25,171 bases of DNA, from positions 1-25,171 of the IMG/VR virus record IMGVR_UViG_3300008110_000483; one strand, given 5' to 3'. Position numbers and translations under genes: made by a program. This document shows positions 1,974 to 21,527 of the stretch, piece after piece (positions within the stretch are counted from its first letter, which is position 1; each line of letters starts with the position of its first letter). This stretch comes from a virus. The notes under the pieces were generated by a model. That model was not told the origin of the DNA, searched no databases, and was given only the letters and a program-made list of their open reading frames with translations.

Positions 1974-3332
1974 TTAACCCATATTTTCTACATATTTTTT
2001 ATGTAATAATTTTCTTTCTAATAATTGTCCGTTGTTTGATTCTTTAGTCGCACTCATGCCTTCGGTAGAAGCCTGGTCAAATATATCTATCTGCCCAACT
2101 TGTGTATCTAACTTTGCAGGAAATGTTAATCCATCTGGACCAAATCTATTTTTAACTATATGGATTCTTGCCGTATTTGCTAATTTATCTTTTGTTTTTC
2201 TACTCACACTCATAATGAAATCGGCTGTTTGAACTTTCTTATATGAATCACCAACACTATCAGCTTGAATAACCTCATGTTCAATTGCCGCTCTATTAGT
2301 TTGCGATGCTGTCCAAATTGGAATACCTAATTCACCACCCAATCCTCGTAGTTCTTCGTAAATACCACCCAATTCTGCATATAAATTATCTCTACCTTTG
2401 TTAGCTGATTTTAATAAATCCGCATAATCAATGATAATGATATCAGGTTTAAATCCTATACCCGCTAATTTATCAATGTGTGCATGTAATGTTTTTGTAC
2501 TGGCAGCTTGTGGTGGATAATACTTAATAATAACCTTTCCTGTAATATGTGAAACCTTTTGTTTGATTTCATCTTTTCTTTCTTTAAGTTTATCGGATGG
2601 GATACCCGTTAATATTGTTGAGTATCTATGACCCACATATGTTTCGGATAATTCCAATGTATAATGTAAAACATTTTTACCTGCTTTTAATGCATCACAG
2701 GCTAATTTAGATAGAAACCAAGTTTTACCAATACCGGATGGTGCTAATACAACCCCCAATTCACCTGGCCCCAATCCTCCATCCATCAAATCATTAACAA
2801 CTTTCCATCCAGTTGGTACTGAATTTCTTTTGGTTTCTTCCATTATCAAATCAATATCTTCTAAATAATCCAAACCAAAATTACTTTCTAGTCCAGCTTT
2901 TAATGCATCGTTGATAATACTACCAACTTCATCTAGTCTTTCAGCTTTAATTAAATCAACGGATTTAAAAATTGCTTCTTTTAATTTTTGATGTTTAGAA
3001 AACTTTAGATATTCTTGCTTAACATATGGTAAATCAGTTGAACCAAATAATGTATAAATAAACTTTAATTGTTCAACTATTATTTTTTGTACGGCTTCGT
3101 TTTCAATTTCTTTTACTTTTATCTTAAACACATCAATAGATGGTGCAGTTCTATATTGTGGATAGTATTTAACTATCTCATTAACAACCCATCTATTTGC
3201 TTCGGATTCAAAGAAATCTTTATTAGTTATATCGTAAACTTGCTCTAAAAATTTAGAATCAGTAAGAAATGCAGCTACTACTTTAGATTGATATGATGAA
3301 CCATATTTTTGTAGTGTATCTACTGCTTCCAT
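1974..3332 (-). CDS. dnaB: Replicative DNA helicase, DnaB/gp41 type (SF4)
   Basis: Hexameric 5'-3' helicase expected to unwind the phage fork. The 452-residue protein has a helical N-terminal part (1-150) and a RecA-fold motor. Walker A is APSGIGKT (197-204), a likely catalytic glutamate lies in LELSE (226-230), Walker B is IIIIDYADLL (298-307, Asp302), the sensor-like TASQTNR (341-347) matches the SQxNR motif of DnaB, and KNRFGPDG (394-401) matches the DnaB arginine-finger region KNRxGxTG. The length is that of DnaB (about 470) or T4 gp41 (475). The ATG overlaps the stop of the 71-aa gene (TAATG), which suggests translational coupling. It is the fifth gene of the SSB-RecA-nuclease block. No primase is visible in the window. 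Confidence 0.9.
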   Translation of the reverse strand: MEAVDTLQKYGSSYQSKVVAAFLTDSKFLEQVYDITNKDFFESEANRWVVNEIVKYYPQYRTAPSIDVFKIKVKEIENEAVQKIIVEQLKFIYTLFGSTDLPYVKQEYLKFSKHQKLKEAIFKSVDLIKAERLDEVGSIINDALKAGLESNFGLDYLEDIDLIMEETKRNSVPTGWKVVNDLMDGGLGPGELGVVLAPSGIGKTWFLSKLACDALKAGKNVLHYTLELSETYVGHRYSTILTGIPSDKLKERKDEIKQKVSHITGKVIIKYYPPQAASTKTLHAHIDKLAGIGFKPDIIIIDYADLLKSANKGRDNLYAELGGIYEELRGLGGELGIPIWTASQTNRAAIEHEVIQADSVGDSYKKVQTADFIMSVSRKTKDKLANTARIHIVKNRFGPDGLTFPAKLDTQVGQIDIFDQASTEGMSATKESNNGQLLERKLLHKKYVENMG

Positions 3333-3565: not shown

Positions 3566-4612
3566 TTAGTTTAATTTGTTAATTGTATAGAATGATTCTA
3601 TTAACCACTTATTAACATCACCAAATGAGTTAATAACTTTATAATGCATCATTGCTTTGATTACGTCTAATTTATCGAATTTTTTTAAACTTTCCAAAAA
3701 TTTATCATTAATTTTTAGTTTAACTTGTCCACTTATATCCGGGTCAGATAATTGCATTAATTTATAGTTTCTTTCAACTATTTCTGTGTTATCGTTTATA
3801 TCATCATATATCTTCCCATTACCGGCGTTTTGTTTTACAAACGATAGAATATCATCTACTGAATAACGGGTCGATTCTGCTACCATAGGAATCTTTTTAA
3901 TGATAGTTTTAATACCACATCCTTTGATACCATTAATACCATCTGATTTATCACCGTCTAACATTCTAAAATTAATAAAGTTATGAGGATGTACTCCATA
4001 TTCTTCTAATACGGAATCAATAGTATATAATTTCTTTTTAGTTGGTGAATAAACTTTTACATTATCAGTAACTAATTGTAAGAAATCTTTATCGGAACTC
4101 ATTATAGTACACCCTTCATCTTCTTTCAAAAGTTGAGATGCAACATATCCAATTACATCATCGGCTTCAATTCTATCATATAACATAACCTGAACTGGCA
4201 TATGTTCTAGAATAGAAACCAAAGAAACCAATTGTCTTTTCATAGATTGTTGTTCATCCTCCTGAGTCATCATATCTTCATATGTTCTATTGACTCTAAA
4301 TCTATTGTTACCTCTATCTGCTTTATACTCGCCAAACAATTCTTTTCTTCTTTGTGACCCACCTTTACCATCAAATATAACAATACAACGAGTACAATTA
4401 TATTGTCGTATAGCATATGCAATTCCTTTTAAAGAACCAACTATTCCGCCAATATGTTCTCCGTTATCGTTCAATGATGGATTAGCAGTCCAACTACGAA
4501 TGAATGTATTTAACCCATCAACTAAAAGCACATTAGAGTTTTTCCCTAATGTGCCTTGTTGTTGGTGTTCTTCTGTAACCTCGTTTAATAATTTCTTATA
4601 TAAATCTTTCAT
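3566..4612 (-). CDS. rnh: FEN-family 5'-3' exonuclease, T4 RNase H-like
   Basis: Structure-specific 5' nuclease expected to remove RNA primers and flaps during lagging-strand synthesis. The 348 residues (T4 RNase H is 305) carry the metal-binding acidic set of the family: Asp32 in LLVDGLNTF, Asp81 in IFDGKGG, then RRKELFGEYKADR (89-100), Glu149/Asp151/Asp152 in IEADDVIG, Asp174/Asp176 in SSDKDF, and Asp221/Asp224 in GDKSDGINGIKGCGIKT, which starts the helix-hairpin-helix DNA-binding region. All key acidic residues appear present. It follows RecA with a TAATG overlap and precedes the 71-aa gene by 18 bases. Since the polymerase in this window lacks a 5' nuclease domain, this separate enzyme probably supplies that activity. 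Confidence 0.9.
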   Translation of the reverse strand: MKDLYKKLLNEVTEEHQQQGTLGKNSNVLLVDGLNTFIRSWTANPSLNDNGEHIGGIVGSLKGIAYAIRQYNCTRCIVIFDGKGGSQRRKELFGEYKADRGNNRFRVNRTYEDMMTQEDEQQSMKRQLVSLVSILEHMPVQVMLYDRIEADDVIGYVASQLLKEDEGCTIMSSDKDFLQLVTDNVKVYSPTKKKLYTIDSVLEEYGVHPHNFINFRMLDGDKSDGINGIKGCGIKTIIKKIPMVAESTRYSVDDILSFVKQNAGNGKIYDDINDNTEIVERNYKLMQLSDPDISGQVKLKINDKFLESLKKFDKLDVIKAMMHYKVINSFGDVNKWLIESFYTINKLN

Positions 4613-5742
4613 TAATCTTCTAATGCACCTGCTCCGAAATCATCTGAAGTTGAATACTCAACTGCATCTGGGTCGATTCCTCCTTTCTTATATTGTAAGA
4701 TAGTTGATTCGCAGATTTTTTTGTAAATTTGTTCTCTAACATCGTCTCTTTCACTCATTAAAGGAATGAAATCTTTTGATTGAAATTTGATAACTTCACC
4801 ACTATCAGTATCTAAATACTCATACCAAGCTCCGCCCTGCTTAACCAATTTATTATCTTTCATAACCTTTAGCCATCCTCCGTAATTATCAATACCACTA
4901 TCAAAATAGATATCGAAATCAGCAGAACGTAATGGTGGTCCTAATCTATTTTTAATTACCTGTGCTCTTACTTTGATACCGATAATTCTATCGCCAGCTT
5001 TAATCTGTCCCATATTCTTCAATCTCAATCTAACCGAAGCGTGGAATGCTAATGCCTTACCACCCGATGTTGTCCAAGGGTCACCGAACATTGCGTTCAT
5101 CTTTTGTCTTAATTGGTTTGTGAATACAACAGCAATCTTTTGTCTACCAATTACATTGGTAATCTTTCTCATTGCTTTAGAAATGATAATTGCTTTATCA
5201 GTTGCATAACCATCCTTTTCATAATCAGCTTCCATCTCTTTTTTCGTAGATGCTGCTGCTACTGAATCGACTACAATTGTAACTAATTTATCTTTATCAG
5301 AAGTTCTTACCTTCTCAATAATAGTGTCAATAGTTTCAAATATATCTTCGACAGTGTCTACACTTACATAAAGTAATTTAGATACATCTACTCCAATTGC
5401 ATCGAAGAATTCTCTACTTACCGCAGTTTCGGTATCAATCAATACCGCAACCCCACCTTGCTTTTGTGTTTCAGCTAAAAGATGGGCAGAGAGCAGAGAT
5501 TTTCCACTCTGCTCTAAACCCGTAATTTCAGTAATTCTTCCAACTGGCAATCCGCCATAAGGTCGGTTTGATATTGCAACGTCTAGCATTGCAGTACCGG
5601 TAGAAATCCATCCGTTTACATTCGTTGGTGCTCCATCGGAGTCATCATCCAAAAAGAATGCTACCTTTTGGTCTTTCCATTTTTTGTTTAGGGAGTCAGC
5701 AAGTACACTTGCTAAATCTTCCTGTTTAGATACCTTTGCCAT
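4612..5742 (-). CDS. recA: RecA-family recombinase
   Basis: ATP-dependent strand-exchange protein that would take the place of T4 UvsX in recombination-dependent replication and repair. The 376 residues show Walker A GLEQSGKS (75-82), catalytic Glu105 in IDTET, Walker B LVTIVVDSVAA with Asp159, and an L2 loop region TNQLRQKMNAMFGDPW followed by TTSGGKALAFHASVRLRL (208-240). That loop is close to bacterial RecA (NQIRxKxGxMFGxPETTxGGxALKFYASVRL) rather than T4 UvsX. The tail is acidic (DDFGAGALED). Walker A differs from the bacterial GPESSGKT at several positions. It starts 17 bases after the SSB gene and overlaps the nuclease gene by one base. RecA fold is certain. Calling it UvsX-like by role would also be fair. 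Confidence 0.93.
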   Translation of the reverse strand: MAKVSKQEDLASVLADSLNKKWKDQKVAFFLDDDSDGAPTNVNGWISTGTAMLDVAISNRPYGGLPVGRITEITGLEQSGKSLLSAHLLAETQKQGGVAVLIDTETAVSREFFDAIGVDVSKLLYVSVDTVEDIFETIDTIIEKVRTSDKDKLVTIVVDSVAAASTKKEMEADYEKDGYATDKAIIISKAMRKITNVIGRQKIAVVFTNQLRQKMNAMFGDPWTTSGGKALAFHASVRLRLKNMGQIKAGDRIIGIKVRAQVIKNRLGPPLRSADFDIYFDSGIDNYGGWLKVMKDNKLVKQGGAWYEYLDTDSGEVIKFQSKDFIPLMSERDDVREQIYKKICESTILQYKKGGIDPDAVEYSTSDDFGAGALED

Positions 5743-5759: not shown

Positions 5760-6620
5760 TTAAAATAAATCATCGAAAGCCGCTTCTACATCAATCTTTG
5801 TTGTAGGTTTTGCGTCATCATCCCAAGGTAAGTCATTTGGTAACTCACCACCCAATCCATCAACTTTCTTTGGTTGTGGTTGAAGTGCTTCTGCTACTGC
5901 AGTAGTTGGTTTTGTAATAGCAGGTTGTGCAGAAATTGCACTATCCGCTGCTTCTTCATCTGTTGCTGCTTTTGATGGGTCTAACCAATTTTCTAAAATA
6001 CCTTTCAATTCAGGATATGTTAATTCTGAATAAATTTCGGTAATTTCTTTTTGATTTTCTAATACTTTGGTAACAACATCTTCATTGTCAGAAAGTTTAG
6101 TTTGATTTGGTTTAACTCTGATACGAGTTTCATTATAAGTTTTGCCGATTTCTGCACCATCTAATACTTCCACAACGATGTCTCTACCACTCAAAGAGTC
6201 GGTAATATCACCATAATCAGGATCAGCGATGATTGCTAAAATTTCTTCGTAAACTGTCTTACCAAATCCCCAAAACTTAACTCCTTCATTTTCTTGTCCT
6301 CTTACGATAATTGGACAGAATGTTCTTAATTTTGGTTCCATCTTCTTACCCGCTTTCCAGTTTTCAGTATCACCTAATTTTTTAAGTTTTTCTGCAAACT
6401 CTACAATTGGGTCAGGTCTACCAAAAGAGATAGGACTCAAATAAGTTTTGTTGTTAATGTTGTAGTGAAAGAAAAGTTCGATAAATGGGTTCTCTCTGTT
6501 AAATTTGTAAGGAACAATACGAACTTGATATTTGCCAGGAGCTGGCTTCCAAAGTGAGTCTGATTTTTTTGTGTTGTTTTGTAAGGCGTTCAGACGAGCC
6601 TTGATTGCATTGATGTTCAT
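5760..6620 (-). CDS. gp32-like single-stranded DNA-binding protein
   Basis: Coats ssDNA during replication and recombination and would partner RecA, helicase and polymerase. The 286 residues (T4 gp32 is 301) show an N-terminal segment MNINAIKARLNALQ suited to cooperative binding, a core with SLWKPAPGKYQVRIVPYKFN (22-41) and FFHYNINNKTYLSPISFGRP, and a proline-rich linker leading to an acidic C-terminus with DLPWDDD and a final EAAFDDLF, the expected partner-binding tail. The core has only one cysteine, so the gp32 zinc site (three Cys and one His in T4) is not present. It heads the replication operon under a host-type promoter with a leader of about 85-90 bases. The family call rests on these motifs and on gene order. 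Confidence 0.82.
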   Translation of the reverse strand: MNINAIKARLNALQNNTKKSDSLWKPAPGKYQVRIVPYKFNRENPFIELFFHYNINNKTYLSPISFGRPDPIVEFAEKLKKLGDTENWKAGKKMEPKLRTFCPIIVRGQENEGVKFWGFGKTVYEEILAIIADPDYGDITDSLSGRDIVVEVLDGAEIGKTYNETRIRVKPNQTKLSDNEDVVTKVLENQKEITEIYSELTYPELKGILENWLDPSKAATDEEAADSAISAQPAITKPTTAVAEALQPQPKKVDGLGGELPNDLPWDDDAKPTTKIDVEAAFDDLF

Positions 6621-7057: not shown

Positions 7058-7089
7058 CAAATATACTACTTTATTTCGATAATATCAAA
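7058..7089 (-). promoter_or_regulatory. Bacteroidota-type promoter for the DUF3310 gene
   Basis: In gene direction TTTG (7089-7086), a 20-base spacer, then TATATTTG (7065-7058), ending 17 bases before the ATG at 7040. Most of it lies inside the 3' end of the preceding 130-aa gene. The leader would be very short. Confidence 0.72.
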
Positions 7090-7458
7090 AATTCTAGTGT
7101 TTATTTTTTTAACACCTTCTGCATTGGTTACCAATATGCAATTCTTATATTTTTCCCAATCTATTTCAAATTTTGGGTCTGGTGTTCCGTTTAGTTCAAC
7201 AACTAATTGATTAAGTGCATTAATAGTGTATAAAGTATTACTATGTTTTTTTCTGTGAACTAGAATAGTTTTTAGATTAATTTTATTTGTAATATCTTCA
7301 CTAACTATATTATATGTAATATATAAATCGTTTGGAATTTCTTTGTTTTGAAGCACATAGATATAGTTAAATGCAATTTCAAAATTACTCTTAATCATTT
7401 CCACCACTTCTTTATAGGCAATTTTATCCGTAAATGTGCACAATAACTGAGTCTTCAT
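7066..7458 (-). CDS. Conserved phage hypothetical protein, 130 aa
   Basis: The protein begins MKTQLLCTFTDKIAYKEVVE and contains LVHRKKHSNTLYTINALNQL (86-105) and IDWEKYKNCILVTNAEGVKK (99-121 region). From memory, the combination of MKTQLLCTF start, HRKKxxNTLYTINALN core and W-x-x-Y-K-N-C end recurs in T4-like phages of marine bacteria and cyanobacteria as a protein of unknown role. No catalytic motif, signal peptide or membrane segment is apparent. It starts 5 bases after the 831-aa gene and its stop overlaps the spacer of the DUF3310 promoter. Function unknown. Confidence 0.75.
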   Translation of the reverse strand: MKTQLLCTFTDKIAYKEVVEMIKSNFEIAFNYIYVLQNKEIPNDLYITYNIVSEDITNKINLKTILVHRKKHSNTLYTINALNQLVVELNGTPDPKFEIDWEKYKNCILVTNAEGVKKINTRIFDIIEIK

Positions 7459-7463
7459 TTATA

Positions 7464-9959
7464 TTATACTTTTCTTTTTAATAAATCTGGTTGGTCCGAA
7501 ACAATATGTGACGGGTTTTGATTTGTTGGTGCTGCTGCTTTACATCCTGTTTTTTTGTTTACCGATATACCAAATCCTGGATCGTGGTGTGGATTCATAT
7601 AGCAAGGTGTACTTACACCATCTGCTATATCATCGGTAACCGAAGTTGCTATTGCATCTTTATTTACGGAAATTTCTTCATTAAAGTTTGAGAATCTGGT
7701 ATAATCCATATCTCTATTATTAATCAATGCAGTTAAGTGCATCATTGTATGATGCAATTGTAATGCTCTTTTAAAGTTTTTAACTCCCTTTGCTCCACCA
7801 CATGCTGCAACACCCGCTTTGGTTAATTTATCTCCCATATTAGTACCGATTGCAGTACCAATAGTCATTGCCTTTTTTGCTTCTTCTGCACTTATTATAC
7901 CTGCTTTAACTGCATAATCTATTAATTTCTTAACTTTACTATCTGCTGTTTTTAAATCACTATCCGATATAGATTGTTGTAAATCTTTATTTTTAGGATA
8001 TGCTAATTGGTATATATCCTGAACTGCTAATAATTCTTTTTTAGTTTTAGAATTTTTATATTCCGTCATCATAATTTTCGGAATACCCGCAGAACCTCCA
8101 CCACCTTTATATTTAACACTCAATCCACCAACATATGTTAATGATACATTATAAAATTGTAAGTTTTTAGCAATTGCCTGCTCTATCGTTTCACCTTTTT
8201 TTGGTGTAATATCTATATCGTCCGGTAATACAATAATATCTGCTGTCTTAAAGTTTTCAGATGATGGGAATAATACTTGTTTTCCTTCTGATAAAAATTG
8301 TAAACCTGCTTTTATTTCCGTAAAGTCTGCTACTGAATCTTTAAAATCAGATGAGTTTGCCATATTCAATAATAATTCATCTAATTTCTTTTTATACGCT
8401 CTTCTTGCGCCCTCATCATTTTGTAAATCATATTTAGAGTTAAACTCTTTTAATTCTTTTAATGATTTAAATATAGCTTTGTTTTCATCGGTTTGTGTTA
8501 AATCATCTTTACCAAACTCCTTTGCATATTTATCTAATTCAGTTTTGAAATTCTTTTCAATTCCTTCTAATAAAGAAGATGAAACTTTTCGTCTACCTTC
8601 TGGTGTTGTTACATCACCAAAGTTTACCATTGTTAATGGTTTACCATCTTTTTCCGCATCCTTTCTAGCATTAACTAAATCGTCTAATCTTCCATTATAT
8701 GCTTTTATTTGATTGACAGTATATTTTGCTTGTTTTGCTGCTTCTTGTTTACTTAATCCTTTTGTAACCAATACTTGTGCTAATTTTTTAGCATCAGGTA
8801 CTTTCAATCTTTTCATTATAACATTACCAACTTTAATATTACCATCCTTTTGTTCAGCTATTTCTAACTTAGCTTCAGGTTGTGTTGGGTTTACACCTTG
8901 TACCATTTTTAATGGAGTAAATACTTTTTTACCAATCGCACCTTCCGATGATTTACCAACATTTAATTTGTTTTTTAAAGCAAATTCTTTAACTGCTTTA
9001 ACCATTGGTAAATTATCAGCTGCTAATTGTATACTTTCATATCCTTGTTGTGGATGTCTTCCGATTGCAGTTCTAGTAAAGTATAATTTAACATCTCCAT
9101 TTTCTGGATTTGTTACAAATTTAGTTGTTTGATTTAATAATTTTCTTTGATTTGCATCTAATTTCGCACCAGAAAATAATACCGCCAATGCTTTCTTCAA
9201 ATCGTTAGCATTTACTTCTGTATATTTGTTTGACCCTTTTTGTGTTTCTAAATAAATAAATCCTTTTTTTGTTTTAACCCCCCTCGATGCTGCTACCCTT
9301 GCTGATTTTTCAGCACATATATCCAACGCTTTACCTGATTCTTTTGCTTTATCTGATAAAGTTGCATCTACCTTATCTCCTTTTTGTTTTGTAGTTGATG
9401 CAAATGCGGATTTAAATGAACTACTATCTCCAACTTTATCGGTTGTTGTAGATGGTTCATCTGTTGGTTTTGCTTTTGTAGTAGGTTTTGGTTCTTCTAC
9501 GCCTTTTTTTGTATTTGTTGGTATAGGTTTTTTAGTTGGTGCAGATTTTGGTTCATTCTCTCTTTCAGGAGCATCTACCATTTCTAAATCATTAGGGTCA
9601 ATTTTATTAGTTCTTAATAACCCCTTTGCTGCTTGTACTGCTGATTTCTTTGCATTATTTGCTTTATAATCATCATCCGTTTCATATCCTAATGCAGTGG
9701 CAACTGTCACCATCTTGCCAAACGCACCACTTACTTTCATTTTTAATACCTTATCTATCTTATCCTCTGCTTCAGGTAAAGTATGTACAATACCTTCTGG
9801 TAATAATTCTATAAATTCCATTAACCCATTTCTATATAAATGAGTTTTTAATTTTTCTAAATGTTCTTCGTTAGTTAAGTCTACTACACCAACTTCTACA
9901 CTTAATTCTACTAAAATTTCTTCTAATAATTCGTTAAGACTTTCGTGTGTTAATTTCAT
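7464..9959 (-). CDS. Large protein of unknown function, candidate internal virion protein
   Basis: I do not recognise a family over most of the 831 residues. The N-terminus MKLTHESLNELLEEILVELS is an amphipathic acidic helix like the leader of phage proteins packaged into capsids. Two (L/I)-x-E-(G/A) sequences follow (LPEG at 53-56, LPEA at 61-64), the cleavage pattern of T4 prohead protease. Residues 128-200 are a Lys/Pro/Thr-rich, probably disordered linker. The middle is Lys-rich and helical. The last 80 or so residues contain several His and Cys (PCYMNPHHDPGFG, KKTGCKAAAP). It overlaps the polymerase gene by 26 bases, so it has no promoter of its own in a gap, although two ATATTTAT copies lie 79-98 bases upstream inside that gene. 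A DNA-metabolism role is an alternative, given its neighbour. Confidence 0.7.
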   Translation of the reverse strand: MKLTHESLNELLEEILVELSVEVGVVDLTNEEHLEKLKTHLYRNGLMEFIELLPEGIVHTLPEAEDKIDKVLKMKVSGAFGKMVTVATALGYETDDDYKANNAKKSAVQAAKGLLRTNKIDPNDLEMVDAPERENEPKSAPTKKPIPTNTKKGVEEPKPTTKAKPTDEPSTTTDKVGDSSSFKSAFASTTKQKGDKVDATLSDKAKESGKALDICAEKSARVAASRGVKTKKGFIYLETQKGSNKYTEVNANDLKKALAVLFSGAKLDANQRKLLNQTTKFVTNPENGDVKLYFTRTAIGRHPQQGYESIQLAADNLPMVKAVKEFALKNKLNVGKSSEGAIGKKVFTPLKMVQGVNPTQPEAKLEIAEQKDGNIKVGNVIMKRLKVPDAKKLAQVLVTKGLSKQEAAKQAKYTVNQIKAYNGRLDDLVNARKDAEKDGKPLTMVNFGDVTTPEGRRKVSSSLLEGIEKNFKTELDKYAKEFGKDDLTQTDENKAIFKSLKELKEFNSKYDLQNDEGARRAYKKKLDELLLNMANSSDFKDSVADFTEIKAGLQFLSEGKQVLFPSSENFKTADIIVLPDDIDITPKKGETIEQAIAKNLQFYNVSLTYVGGLSVKYKGGGGSAGIPKIMMTEYKNSKTKKELLAVQDIYQLAYPKNKDLQQSISDSDLKTADSKVKKLIDYAVKAGIISAEEAKKAMTIGTAIGTNMGDKLTKAGVAACGGAKGVKNFKRALQLHHTMMHLTALINNRDMDYTRFSNFNEEISVNKDAIATSVTDDIADGVSTPCYMNPHHDPGFGISVNKKTGCKAAAPTNQNPSHIVSDQPDLLKRKV

Positions 9960-11304
9960 TTTGCTCTTGATAGTTTTTTCCGATTGTAACTTTTATGGGA
10001 TAATTCCCATCTTTTAAAATACTTTCTATTTCTTTTAATAAATATGTTTCTTCTTTATAAATATCAAAAGTTAAGGCATCATATGTATATAATATAAGTT
10101 TTGTCTTTTTTCCTCTTAATAATTCTACAATTTTTTTAATCTTTTGTACATTTATTTCAGTTTCTAACGCCTGAATATAATAATTGAATGCTTTTGTTTC
10201 GGAAACTGCTTTACCAAACTCAACCACTTTTAGTGGTAATTTAAATATTCTACTTTCTATTAGACCTTTACTATCTATAATTTCTATTAACTTTTCAGTA
10301 AATAATGCAATATCATTGAAGAATGGTATCTCTTTCATATCCGAATCTATTCCACCATATATTTGTTGAAATGTTAAAATTTTCATTTCATCATATGATA
10401 TTCCACTCAAATCAATAGATTGTTTTTGAATCCAATCATATATGTTTGTATCTTCATCAATAGTTGAATAATGTGATGAAAATCTATTTGGATGTTTACG
10501 AAACAATTCAACAAATATATTTGCTAAAATACGAGGATGATATGATACAAAGTCCATATTTAATATCCTACCGTCATCTCCATATCTACTTACAAAATGT
10601 TTACGGATACCTGTGTTCTTATTTAGTGCTGAAAAGTTTGTTCCTCCGAATGTATTAGATGGTCTTAATGTTGATGTTAAAAAATTGTAAGATGAAAATA
10701 CCAACCCATCTACATTTCGTTTTCCTTCTCTTTGCTGAGAAATTTCTTCATCAACATATATTCCATTCTTTTCAATCTCACCAAACATTTTTACATACTC
10801 ACTAAATTCTTTAACACTAACAAATGTTTTCCAATTCGTGCAGTTAGGATATATTGGTAATAGCGGTTTGATTTGCTCTAATTGTTTAGCAATAGGAACG
10901 GAATCGTTTATATTTACAATATCTTTATAATATGGTTTTGGTAATTCGTATTCATCTGCTACTTTACCAAATGAACACATAAATAAAATATCAGCATCAA
11001 TTGAATTATCTATATTGTATAATTGTGAAAACTCTTTATACCAATAAACTATTCTATTTAATCTACCTGTTTGTTTTTCATTTAAAAAATCTAATCCTTC
11101 TATTTTCATACCCAAACAATCGGTATGATTTATATTAACCACATAATATTGAGATGATTGGTTGAAATAAAATACAACAAATGATAATCTGTTCTGTGAA
11201 AAATGTAATTTATTATCTGACCATTGTGGGTATATCACACAATCTTCCGATGCCCATTTCACTTTAAGTGCTTGTAAACTATCTATATCTTCTACATAAA
11301 ACAT
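9934..11304 (-). CDS. Divergent family A DNA polymerase without active 3'-5' exonuclease or 5' nuclease domain
   Basis: Probable DNA polymerase; T4 itself uses a family B enzyme. Of 456 residues the C-terminal 270 are the palm and fingers. STLRPSNTFGGTNFSALNKN (211-230) corresponds to the conserved T-G-R/PNLQN region. Motif A is NMDFVSYHPRIL (Asp251, Arg258). Motif B is MKILTFQQIYGG (Lys308, Phe312, Tyr316). FNYYIQALE (373-381) supplies the conserved Asn and Gln. Motif C is YTYDALTFD (Asp409). Residues 1-190 look like a decayed exonuclease fold without the acidic DxE set. The E. coli Glu710 position is His256, and the Arg754 position is Tyr304. A host-type promoter ends only 4 bases before the ATG. 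It overlaps the next gene by 26 bases. A repair or specialised role is an alternative to replicase. Confidence 0.83.
   Translation of the reverse strand: MFYVEDIDSLQALKVKWASEDCVIYPQWSDNKLHFSQNRLSFVVFYFNQSSQYYVVNINHTDCLGMKIEGLDFLNEKQTGRLNRIVYWYKEFSQLYNIDNSIDADILFMCSFGKVADEYELPKPYYKDIVNINDSVPIAKQLEQIKPLLPIYPNCTNWKTFVSVKEFSEYVKMFGEIEKNGIYVDEEISQQREGKRNVDGLVFSSYNFLTSTLRPSNTFGGTNFSALNKNTGIRKHFVSRYGDDGRILNMDFVSYHPRILANIFVELFRKHPNRFSSHYSTIDEDTNIYDWIQKQSIDLSGISYDEMKILTFQQIYGGIDSDMKEIPFFNDIALFTEKLIEIIDSKGLIESRIFKLPLKVVEFGKAVSETKAFNYYIQALETEINVQKIKKIVELLRGKKTKLILYTYDALTFDIYKEETYLLKEIESILKDGNYPIKVTIGKNYQEQNEINTRKS
10038..10064 (-). promoter_or_regulatory. Two ATATTTAT copies upstream of the 831-aa gene
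   Basis: Exact copies at 10064-10057 and 10045-10038 in gene direction lie inside the end of the polymerase gene, 98 and 79 bases before the 831-aa start. They are the only two of the eight copies found within coding sequence. An internal late promoter is possible; chance in AT-rich DNA is the alternative. Confidence 0.3.
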
Positions 11305-11377: not shown

Positions 11378-12160
11378 TTATTCTCCCCAATGTTGTTTTC
11401 TCAATTCATACATATTAATTGGTTCTCTTTTCATATGCCCACCTTTTGAAAAGTTTGCACCTTTTTTAAGGTATCCACCTAAAAAGTTTCTTCTCATTCT
11501 ATTTGAGTTATTTGCTTCTGAACCATGCACACAATGTGAGTGTAATAATACTACTTGTCCTTTTCTTAAATATCCTTCTACTTTACGGAAATCATGTCCT
11601 TCCGGCATTACACAAGGTTTACCTCTTTCATTTCTCCAAAATGTAGGATTAGTTTTTGTTCTTTCCTCATCTACTTCAATTGGTAAAACTGGCAATCTAT
11701 GTGAACCTTCGTAATTCCATACCGCTCCGTTTTCAGGATCGTGATTATCTAATGCTAATGCAGTATTGATAATTTCATTGTGTCCACATTGTGTATAAAA
11801 TGCGTTTTGATGTTGGTCTCTACCTAATTGTCCTGGTGGTTTAAAATAACACCAACTTTGCATTCCTTCAATCTCGCCTTCCATTAAAAATTCTACCGCT
11901 TCCAATACTTTTGGGTGTGCAAATAATGCTTCTAATTTATCTGATAATTTATGTGGATATGCAAATGGGTCCCACTCTCCCCACTCTTTGCCGTCTTCAG
12001 TCGTAGTTCCAATTCTTTCTTGACGAAGTTTTTCTAACTCATCATTAATTTCATCTACCTGTTCTTCTGTTAATAATTCTAGGACCGTAAATCCTCTGTA
12101 TCTCCAATCAAATGTAATTTGTTGGATTTCTAAATCCGTAAGATGTTTAAAATTTCCCAT
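11378..12160 (-). CDS. Phytanoyl-CoA dioxygenase (PhyH) family protein
   Basis: Fe(II)/2-oxoglutarate oxygenase fold, 260 residues, within family range. The core pattern is clear: DQHQNAFYTQCG (115-126) at the first metal site, NTALALDNHDPENGAVWNYE (132-151) and GSHR (152-155), which match the ALxDxxxENGxLxxxPGSHR block, and GQVVLLHSHCVHGSEANNS (201-219) with distal His212, followed by RMRRN with the likely 2-oxoglutarate arginine. The usual HxD metal pair reads His117-Gln-Asn119, so one acidic ligand is replaced. Substrate is unknown. Phage members of this superfamily have been proposed to modify nucleic acids, proteins or small molecules. It lies after the tail genes, has its own ATATTTAT element and ends in a terminator, so it may be expressed late with them. 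Confidence 0.88.
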   Translation of the reverse strand: MGNFKHLTDLEIQQITFDWRYRGFTVLELLTEEQVDEINDELEKLRQERIGTTTEDGKEWGEWDPFAYPHKLSDKLEALFAHPKVLEAVEFLMEGEIEGMQSWCYFKPPGQLGRDQHQNAFYTQCGHNEIINTALALDNHDPENGAVWNYEGSHRLPVLPIEVDEERTKTNPTFWRNERGKPCVMPEGHDFRKVEGYLRKGQVVLLHSHCVHGSEANNSNRMRRNFLGGYLKKGANFSKGGHMKREPINMYELRKQHWGE

Positions 12161-20212: not shown

Positions 20213-20470
20213 TTAGAAATGAAATTCTGAATTAGGATTTGGTTTGTAATTCATCTTTTTTAATTTTGCTCTCAAATTTTTTGCAGCATTATCAATTGTA
20301 TCAATATAATCATCGAATGCTTTTGCTAAAGTTGGATTTTGTTTTTCAGCTGTTTTTAGAAATCTATCTTGGTTACTCTTTGATACTGAATCAAAGAACT
20401 TATCCATCAATCTATCTATTAAATCTTCCCTTAATACTTCTTTTTGTTCTTTTGTTAATTTTTTAGACAT
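20213..20470 (-). CDS. Small charged helical protein upstream of tape measure gene, unknown
   Basis: This 85-residue protein is not recognised. It is strongly charged and helical: MSKKLTKEQKEVLREDLIDR, then LMDKFFDSVSKSNQDRFLKT and a second helix around AFDDYIDTIDNAAKNLRAKL, ending NYKPNPNSEFHF. No membrane segment or signal peptide. It is the first gene of the tape measure transcript, 17 bases downstream of an ATATTTAT element and a terminator, and 5 bases before the tape measure gene. Small proteins in this slot often act as tape measure chaperones or assembly factors, which is a reasonable but untested guess here. Confidence 0.72.
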   Translation of the reverse strand: MSKKLTKEQKEVLREDLIDRLMDKFFDSVSKSNQDRFLKTAEKQNPTLAKAFDDYIDTIDNAAKNLRAKLKKMNYKPNPNSEFHF

Positions 20471-20487
20471 AGTAAGTTTATTTGTTT

Positions 20488-20495
20488 ATAAATAT
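20488..20495 (-). promoter_or_regulatory. ATATTTATA element before the 85-aa / tape measure genes
   Basis: Reads TAATATTTATAAACAAATAA in gene direction, 17 bases before the ATG at 20470 and directly after a terminator. Inferred late promoter. Confidence 0.5.
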
Positions 20496-20500
20496 TATAT

Positions 20501-20536
20501 AAAAAGAAAAGTTAGGATTTATCTTTTCCTAACTTT
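20501..20536 (-). terminator. Intrinsic terminator overlapping the end of the small chaperone-like gene
   Basis: In gene direction AAAGTTAGGA-(9-base loop)-TCCTAACTTT is a perfect ten-pair stem followed by a TCTTTTT tract. The left arm contains the last codons of the gene ending at 20519. It separates the chaperone pair from the tape measure unit. Confidence 0.75.
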
Positions 20537-20764
20537 ACTTTCTGCTTTTTTATATTCGTCTGCTTCTTTCTTTTTAATATCAATTAATATTTTAAGATAA
20601 AACCTTCGTAATCTAACCGGCATATTATACACATCCGAGTGAGTAAACCCACCATTTCCATGAAACACCAATGAAAAAATTTCTTCATGTAGTGTTTTAG
20701 TATAATCAATTGGTAGGGTAAAAAAAGTCAACCCCGAAAGGTATATCAAGTGCCTCCGTTTCAC
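20519..20764 (-). CDS. Small tail-assembly protein, possible +1 frameshift extension of the gp26-like gene
   Basis: The frame runs from a GTG at 20764 (81 residues), but the recognisable part starts after the overlap with the previous gene: LPIDYTKTLHEEIFSLVFHG, NGGFTHSDVYNMPVRLRRFY and a Lys/Glu-rich end. G-G-F-T/S-x-x-(D/E)-V-Y-N-M-P-x-x-(L/R)-R-x-F-Y occurs in short proteins beside baseplate genes of marine T4-like phages, as I recall. The only in-frame ATG lies inside this conserved segment, and the GTG has no clear Shine-Dalgarno. The frame is +1 relative to the upstream gene and the two share a seven-T run (20726-20720) 12 bases before the upstream stop. A +1 slip there would give a 335-residue fusion. 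It occupies the slot of T4 gene 51. A stand-alone GTG- or TTG-started protein is the alternative. Confidence 0.68.
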   Translation of the reverse strand: MKRRHLIYLSGLTFFTLPIDYTKTLHEEIFSLVFHGNGGFTHSDVYNMPVRLRRFYLKILIDIKKKEADEYKKAESKVRKR

Positions 20765-21527
20765 CCGTTTCTTCTGATGTATAATCGAAAGTTAAATCTA
20801 AATCTGGTGTTATTTTTCTAATATAATCTCTCATTGCTTTCGCATCTCTTGCTAACATTTGATTATCCACATATCTATTAATTGTTCCTCTATCACTATT
20901 ACCATTTACAGAAGTAATCATCTTTTTTAAACGAGTTGTTAAATCCAAAGATGTTTCTGATTTTGTTAATCTTTGCATAGCCTGAACTTCTGCGGTAATA
21001 TCCTTCTCATCTTTATGTGTTATCAATTTGAATATTAATTTCGCACCAGATGGTGTTGTAAATTCATATCTATTTTCTCTGTTTAATAAATCAATATCAA
21101 TTTCTTTTGATTTCAATTCAGATAAATTAATAACATGTTGTACTTTATTTCCCGTAAATGGGTCATTCATTTCAACTTGATAATCAGAACCATATGCTAA
21201 CATACGGGTTGCAATTAAAATTGCATTCTTATCACCCACAATAACATCATCTGCTATTTTAGGGTCAATCATTACTGATTCGAATAACTTTTCTAAAACT
21301 ACTCCTTTCTTAATTAAATTTTGAGATGATAGAATATCTTCTTCTCTTGCTGTCATCAATTTAATTTCAACTGCCCCATTTGCTAATGGATGTCCTTCTG
21401 GGTAACATCTACCTTCCGATGGTAGTGTTATCACTTCTGTTGGGAAATCATATTTAGATTGTTTTGTTTCCGTAACAGGTATCGTTGGTGTTTCTCCACC
21501 TCTACTTATTTGTATGTTTTCTTCCAT
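20706..21527 (-). CDS. gp26-like baseplate protein / tail assembly chaperone (T4_baseplate family)
   Basis: A 273-residue protein matching, by recall, the T4 baseplate protein family that includes gp26. FPTEVITLPSEGRCYPEGHP (29-48), LANGAVEIKLMTAREEDILS and SQNLIKKGVVLEKLFESVMI are the diagnostic N-terminal block, followed by a beta/helical middle and a C-terminus ending VDFFYPTN. In T4, gp26 is not a major virion part and acts in hub assembly. Its location before the tape measure gene suits a chaperone for that protein. It overlaps the next frame by 59 bases with a seven-T run close to its stop. An imperfect copy of the promoter-like element (ATAGTTATATAAAAC) lies 19 bases before the start. 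No Shine-Dalgarno. Confidence 0.8.
   Translation of the reverse strand: MEENIQISRGGETPTIPVTETKQSKYDFPTEVITLPSEGRCYPEGHPLANGAVEIKLMTAREEDILSSQNLIKKGVVLEKLFESVMIDPKIADDVIVGDKNAILIATRMLAYGSDYQVEMNDPFTGNKVQHVINLSELKSKEIDIDLLNRENRYEFTTPSGAKLIFKLITHKDEKDITAEVQAMQRLTKSETSLDLTTRLKKMITSVNGNSDRGTINRYVDNQMLARDAKAMRDYIRKITPDLDLTFDYTSEETGETEALDIPFGVDFFYPTN

Follow-up and report, generated by a model that had tools for sequence, protein, structure and literature searches.

The divergent family A DNA polymerase divPolA1 has been described in 14 phages, Flavobacterium phage immuto and related phages (Virol J 2024;21:200, PMC11348598; preprint PMC11188092). As far as the main text of that report goes, the exonuclease of divPolA1 is inactivated, its thumb is truncated, its palm residues are kept and its replication neighbourhood is conserved, and it is always accompanied by a regular PolA, PolB or PolC; divPolA2, in the same report, has a barbavirus-type N-terminal domain. 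Here, a gene of the divPolA1 type was studied in a stretch of viral DNA of 25,171 bases (IMG/VR record IMGVR_UViG_3300008110_000483, hereafter the window), where it lies at 9934..11304 on the minus strand. By its sequence, the 456-amino-acid (aa) product is near certain to belong to the divPolA1 family. It is homologous to divPolA1 of immuto (tblastn E 3e-17, 86% of the query, 25.9% identity), and it agrees with the published family in lacking conserved acids in the first exonuclease strand, in its truncated thumb and in the replication genes downstream, which in the window are gp32, UvsX, FEN and gp41. The family, the dead exonuclease, the truncated thumb and the presence of a second polymerase beside the regular one are already known. 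What is new here is that the His/Tyr/Tyr nucleotide pocket is universal, that the relatives number at least 585, that the gene order is nearly fixed and that a companion protein, p130, goes with the polymerase.

Results

Assignment to family A

The reading frame of the window protein starts with ATG, and the opposite (plus) strand of 9934-11304 is closed by many stops. A preliminary description had called the gene a divergent PolA-type polymerase, which is borne out by the reading frame, the fold and a profile alignment. When the protein was aligned by hhalign with seven ordinary PolAs, residues 198-449 were matched with 98.5% probability (E 2.6e-15). The alignment pairs D251 with D705, H256 with E710, Y304 with R754, K308 with K758, F312 with F762, Y316 with Y766 and D409 with D882. 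A structure model, for which 39 aligned sequences served as input, was of moderate confidence (predicted local distance difference test score, pLDDT, 70.5; predicted template modelling score, pTM, 0.72). Its top Foldseek match is the Klenow fragment 1d8y (E 1.3e-16), indicating a Klenow-type fold. VIA aligned the model over 368 residues with Bst polymerase 4dsj (Z 22.6, root mean square deviation 4.4) and over 417 residues with Klenow 1kfs (Z 21.9, deviation 4.4).

The window protein gives no match over the cut-off to Pfam DNA_pol_A (PF00476); several of its relatives do pass that cut-off, and a DNA polymerase family of PHROGs matches residues 357-452 of the window protein (E 9.1e-7). The Pfam, PHROG, tblastn-to-immuto and nearest-relative searches used 9934-11301, with the first Met dropped, which lowers their residue numbers by one. 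Purifying selection acts on the gene: the ratio of nonsynonymous to synonymous substitution rates (dN/dS) against an 88% identical copy is 0.094, being 0.079 in the N-terminal part and 0.105 in palm and fingers.

A changed nucleotide pocket throughout the family

Glu710 is a textbook sugar gate of family A enzymes. In motif A of the window protein, DFVSYHPR (residues 251-258; 10531..10554, minus strand), the profile alignment and column counts place His256 at this steric-gate position, and Asp251 is kept. Motif B, YDEMKILTFQQIYG (residues 304-317; 10354..10395, minus strand), has Tyr304 at the position of Arg754 and keeps Lys308, Phe312 and Tyr316. In motif C, YTYDA (residues 406-410; 10075..10089, minus strand), Asp409 is kept, with Tyr408 at the His881 position and Ala410 at the Glu883 position. 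The replacements at Glu710 and Arg754 had been noticed in the preliminary description, and the profile alignment arrives at the same pairing. Retention of Lys308, Phe312, Tyr316, Asp251 and Asp409, claimed there as well, was confirmed by alignment and column counts. The model, for which superposition on Pol I had been proposed, is Klenow-like, and His256 stays at the gate position in the profile alignment. Tyr408, Ala410 and the near-lost thumb are additions to the earlier list.

Confirmed relatives numbered 3, 109, 312 and at least 585 in successive scans of viral contigs, whose results overlap (the last are from IMG/VR); a scan using the LR756508 protein as query gave no match. From each of the three larger scans the best 80 matches were kept, and the family alignment of 247 rows was reduced to 203 by removing identical rows and rows shorter than 300 aa. 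His is present at position 256 in 203/203 of these distinct relatives. Position 304 is Tyr in 194 of the 203 (I in 6; M, V and K in 1 each) and never Arg. Tyr at 408 and Asp at 409 were each found in 201/201, and position 410 is A in 140 and S in 61 of 201. D251, F312, Y316, Q378 and R214 are invariant (203/203 each), and K308 is present in 202/203, the remaining one being X. Since motif-A peptides were among the search patterns, the count of His256 was repeated for the 19 rows outside those patterns, the window and its near-identical relative among them, and gave 19/19. The pocket changes are far above chance and are not a quirk of one sequence.

A control set of ordinary PolAs, narrow because it is mostly of one lineage (Roseobacter-phage type), has Glu710 in 80/80, Arg754 in 80/80 and His881 in 73/73, and at position 883 S in 63, Q in 8 and E in 2 of 73. 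A second scan intended to broaden this control gave no match. Comparison of the two sets of counts thus indicates that the changes at Glu710, Arg754 and His881 mark the divPolA1 family, whereas the change at Glu883 does not.

In family B polymerases, a Tyr in motif A acts as the sugar gate. The ring of His256 resembles this Tyr, and loss of sugar selection should therefore not be assumed; by this analogy, the bulky ring probably still works as a sugar gate. A family with His at Glu710, and with Arg754 and His881 also replaced, offers a natural experiment on the joint change of these residues. The words 'steric', 'histidine' and 'ribonucleotide' are absent from the main text of PMC11348598, whose figures may show the residues. 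Among the steric-gate papers searched by title and abstract start, none has a title on a naturally occurring His gate in a family A polymerase, which counts as weak evidence, and the passages covered of PMC6302109, on phage PolA diversity, do not mention the divPolA1 family.

Exonuclease-like domain and thumb

The N-terminal part of the protein, residues about 1-155 (10840..11304, minus strand), is a 3'-5' exonuclease-like domain in which the first-strand acidic residues are lost, as judged from VIA alignments and column counts. The VIA alignments with the Bst/Klenow large fragment begin at model residue 1, and the N-terminal part overlies the 3'-5' exonuclease domain. Within the first strand (residues 23-29), no acid is conserved in the family: the acid fraction is 0 at 23, 24, 26, 27 and 28, 0.30 at 25 and 0.02 at 29. 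Of the earlier claim of an exonuclease fold without its acidic residues, the fold and the acid-free first strand stand. Acids at 62, 103, 143 and 178, which are conserved in the family, speak against a clean reading of the claim. Model residues 64-102 and 113-127 fall below pLDDT 50, so that exonuclease positions II and III could not be placed with confidence. The thumb is almost gone. It comprises 36 residues (E178-R214) against 127 in E. coli Pol I (E541-R668), about 90 residues being absent, where the pairing of E178 with E541 is based on a common IExNG motif.

Regular polymerases in the relatives

The nearest relative is an 88% identical gene on a 237-kb record (G001). The PolB of this record, 843 aa long, has polymerase and exonuclease domains and keeps the motifs of both (DIE, NIDFFD, YNIVD, DLTSLYPS, KILLNSMYG and YIDTD). 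The record also encodes proteins related to gp44 and gp62 of the T4 clamp loader and a DnaG-type primase. For the sliding clamp in G001, T4 gp45 gave no match; a candidate by position only, a relative of the Mel-JY01 protein adjoining PolB, matches no Pfam family.

Of the relatives, 19 long virus records were chosen by length and not randomly, and 18 of them have a regular polymerase, either a full PolB or a full PolA. PolB is present in G001, Mel-JY01, LR756508, G002, G007, G008, G009, G011, G012, G014 and G015, and PolA in immuto, G003, G004, G005, G006, G010 and G016. Only in G017, a 114-kb fragment, was no regular polymerase found. The bin G013, a metagenome-assembled genome (MAG), was omitted from the count because it mixes sequences. 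The premise of the preliminary description that this might be the only polymerase of the phage has thus to be given up, as a second complete replicative polymerase is present for the clade. Going by the gene content of these relatives, it is very unlikely that divPolA1 is the sole polymerase of the window phage. Proofreading of the genome would come from a separate PolB such as that of the nearest relative. A separate RNase_T/DnaQ exonuclease, the other proposed source, gave no match in three of three records; by Pfam, the immuto protein annotated 'exonuclease' is of the PD-(D/E)XK type, with a match at 2.1e-4 that falls slightly short of the cut-off.

A DnaG-type primase was detected in 9 of 13 records, including 9/9 of those of at least 150 kb; the four misses are contigs of 110-126 kb. 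The idea that divPolA1 replaces the primase was rejected, as a DnaG-type primase is present in all nine tested records of at least 150 kb.

Two observations concern the annotation of these relatives. In the 484-kb phage LR756508.1 (W03), PolB is matched in two separate open frames of 1022 and 625 aa (260623-266900), which may reflect a split gene or an insertion. In Mel-JY01 (L003), the FEN gene at 20384-21424 is annotated 'DNA polymerase I' (TIGR00593) and the real PolA-like protein is labelled hypothetical.

Gene module around the polymerase

All the genes downstream of the polymerase described here lie on the minus strand. An 831-aa open reading frame (7464..9959), whose first 26 bases overlap the end of the polymerase gene, separates divPolA1 from p130 (7066..7458). 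The 831-aa protein matches no family in Pfam or PHROG searches; its counterpart in locus L002 is 84% identical, with dN/dS 0.14. Beyond p130 are a gp32-type single-strand binding protein (5760..6620; Pfam gp32, E 1.8e-15), a UvsX/RecA-type recombinase (4612..5742; PHROG 97, E 6.4e-75), a FEN-type 5' nuclease (3566..4612; Pfam 5_3_exonuc_N, E 6.2e-33) and a gp41/DnaB-type replicative helicase (1974..3332; PHROG 19, E 6.4e-83). The FEN nuclease reported nearby in the preliminary description is therefore genuine on the Pfam evidence, and it recurs in most relatives. Among 95 loci with at least 7 kb of downstream flank, gp32 is found downstream of divPolA1 in 94, UvsX in 94, FEN in 90 and gp41 in 86, and all four stand in the order gp32, UvsX, FEN, gp41 in 85. 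The exceptions include some loci with gp32 and UvsX more distant, and L284, with none of the four in its flank. The module is constant while the main polymerase differs (PolA or PolB), which suggests that divPolA1 is tied to the helicase-recombination set and not to the replicase.

Directly upstream of the polymerase, at 11378-12160 of the window (minus strand), is a PhyH-type dioxygenase gene (Pfam E 8.8e-22), present likewise in L002. A divPolA1 module with p130, gp32, UvsX, FEN and gp41 was also seen on a 104-kb contig in a bacterial MAG (L298, CALMEO010000055.1), most likely a phage sequence within the bacterial bin.

The companion protein p130

The 130-aa protein p130 carries an HRKK..N..Y..N..N signature, which is invariant, and is more conserved than the polymerase, with 37-57% identity to the window copy in diverse relatives. 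It lies downstream of divPolA1 in 112/112 loci with at least 5.5 kb of flank. In the reverse search, 79 loci were fetched by p130; divPolA1 was present in 33/33 of those with at least 6 kb upstream and in 45/50 of those with at least 2.5 kb. The same six of the 50,697 phage records searched hold both p130 and full-length divPolA1, and in that search p130 occurs only with divPolA1. This two-way linkage may mean merely that both are core genes of one clade, a question left unsettled by the control gene p135, which occurs in just 2 of the 50,697 records. The p130 model is confident (pLDDT 92.6). Its fold has no match in the PDB at E 0.001, and the best VIA Z of 6.5 over 65 residues is below the level of kinship. 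The fold search gave one viral relative, itself without assigned function.

Discussion

From its sequence and modelled structure, we give about an even chance to the reading that divPolA1 is an auxiliary enzyme, distributive and without proofreading, that acts on gaps and recombination intermediates. Large T4-like phages would keep this accessory family A polymerase alongside whichever main polymerase they use. The enzyme would be active, lack proofreading and make short DNA stretches on substrates handled by gp32, UvsX and gp41; gaps between Okazaki fragments and invading 3' ends needing extension are candidate substrates. The adjoining FEN may act as a detached 5' nuclease. Bulk replication and proofreading would be left to the separate regular polymerase, PolB in the nearest relative. 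Counted for this role are the homology to immuto divPolA1, the invariant or nearly invariant catalytic positions D251, K308, Y316 and D409, purifying selection, the regular polymerase and the DnaG-type primase in most of the relatives' records and the recurring gene order.

Several points weigh against it. At 25,171 bases, the window record does not reach far enough to reveal a main polymerase, which for this phage is inferred from relatives. FEN is absent from the available flank in 5 of 95 loci, and one of the family's loci (L043) has gp41 and UvsX yet no FEN, so that FEN may not be obligatory. Gene neighbourhood indicates shared use at most. T4 is not known to need such a second polymerase, which leaves the need for gap filling unexplained.

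Eukaryotic Pol alpha takes over an RNA primer, and divPolA1 might by comparison extend the RNA primer of the primase, perhaps tolerating ribonucleotides, and hand over to the main polymerase. The changed gate, the retained exonuclease-like domain with its first-strand acids gone, the common module with gp41 and gp32 and the availability of a separate primase as partner are consistent with such a role, and the missing thumb would suit short products. In the nearest relative, however, the primase gene is distant from the module (50816 versus 133559), and we consider primer extension rather unlikely. A translesion or mutator polymerase, working at stalled forks or on modified phage DNA, would agree with the altered pocket, the first strand without proofreading residues, the adjoining gp32 and UvsX and the deazaguanine DNA-modification genes annotated in the immuto relative. 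The family is, however, found on many contigs with an almost constant pocket, and more frequent loss would be expected of an enzyme dedicated to lesions; this role is unlikely.

It is quite doubtful, but worth stating, that divPolA1 and p130 form one two-chain polymerase. Here p130 would replace the thumb or clamp the primer, and the His/Tyr/Tyr pocket would select an unusual sugar or triphosphate, which could serve, for example, RNA-primer extension. If true, a family A enzyme would have been remade into a machine of two parts that stays fixed while the main replicase swaps families.

A catalytically dead scaffold derived from PolA could account for the changes at E710, R754, H881 and E883. 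It is very improbable, since there is no or almost no variation at the two metal-binding aspartates, Lys308, Arg214, Gln378 and Tyr316, and since position 883 varies in ordinary PolAs as well (Glu in 2 of 73). That divPolA1 is the main or sole replicase, working without proofreading, is hardly credible: its conserved position among replication genes, its invariant catalytic residues and the part in replication put forward in the main text of PMC11348598 would fit, but the thumb is missing, 18 of the 19 long records have a full PolB or PolA, and the nearest relative carries T4-type clamp loader genes besides a PolB that includes an exonuclease.

The accessory role leaves the question why phages with either PolA or PolB retain divPolA1 and p130 among gp32, UvsX, FEN and gp41. 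With respect to known enzymes, the fold and motif order are those of bacterial DNA polymerase I (Klenow, Bst and Taq large fragments), and in the Bst and Taq polymerases the exonuclease domains are dead too. The FEN adjoining divPolA1 recalls the 5' nuclease of Pol I, here a separate gene and in Pol I part of the same chain. Unlike bacterial Pol I, the divPolA1 family has the Glu710, Arg754 and His881 positions replaced, and the window protein has about 90 fewer thumb residues. Motif A approaches that of family B, with DLTSLYPS in the PolB of the clade and in T4 gp43 against DFVSYHPR here, both with a bulky ring at D+5. Unlike family B, motifs B and C and the fold of the window protein are those of family A, and the likeness is one of short motifs and not of descent.

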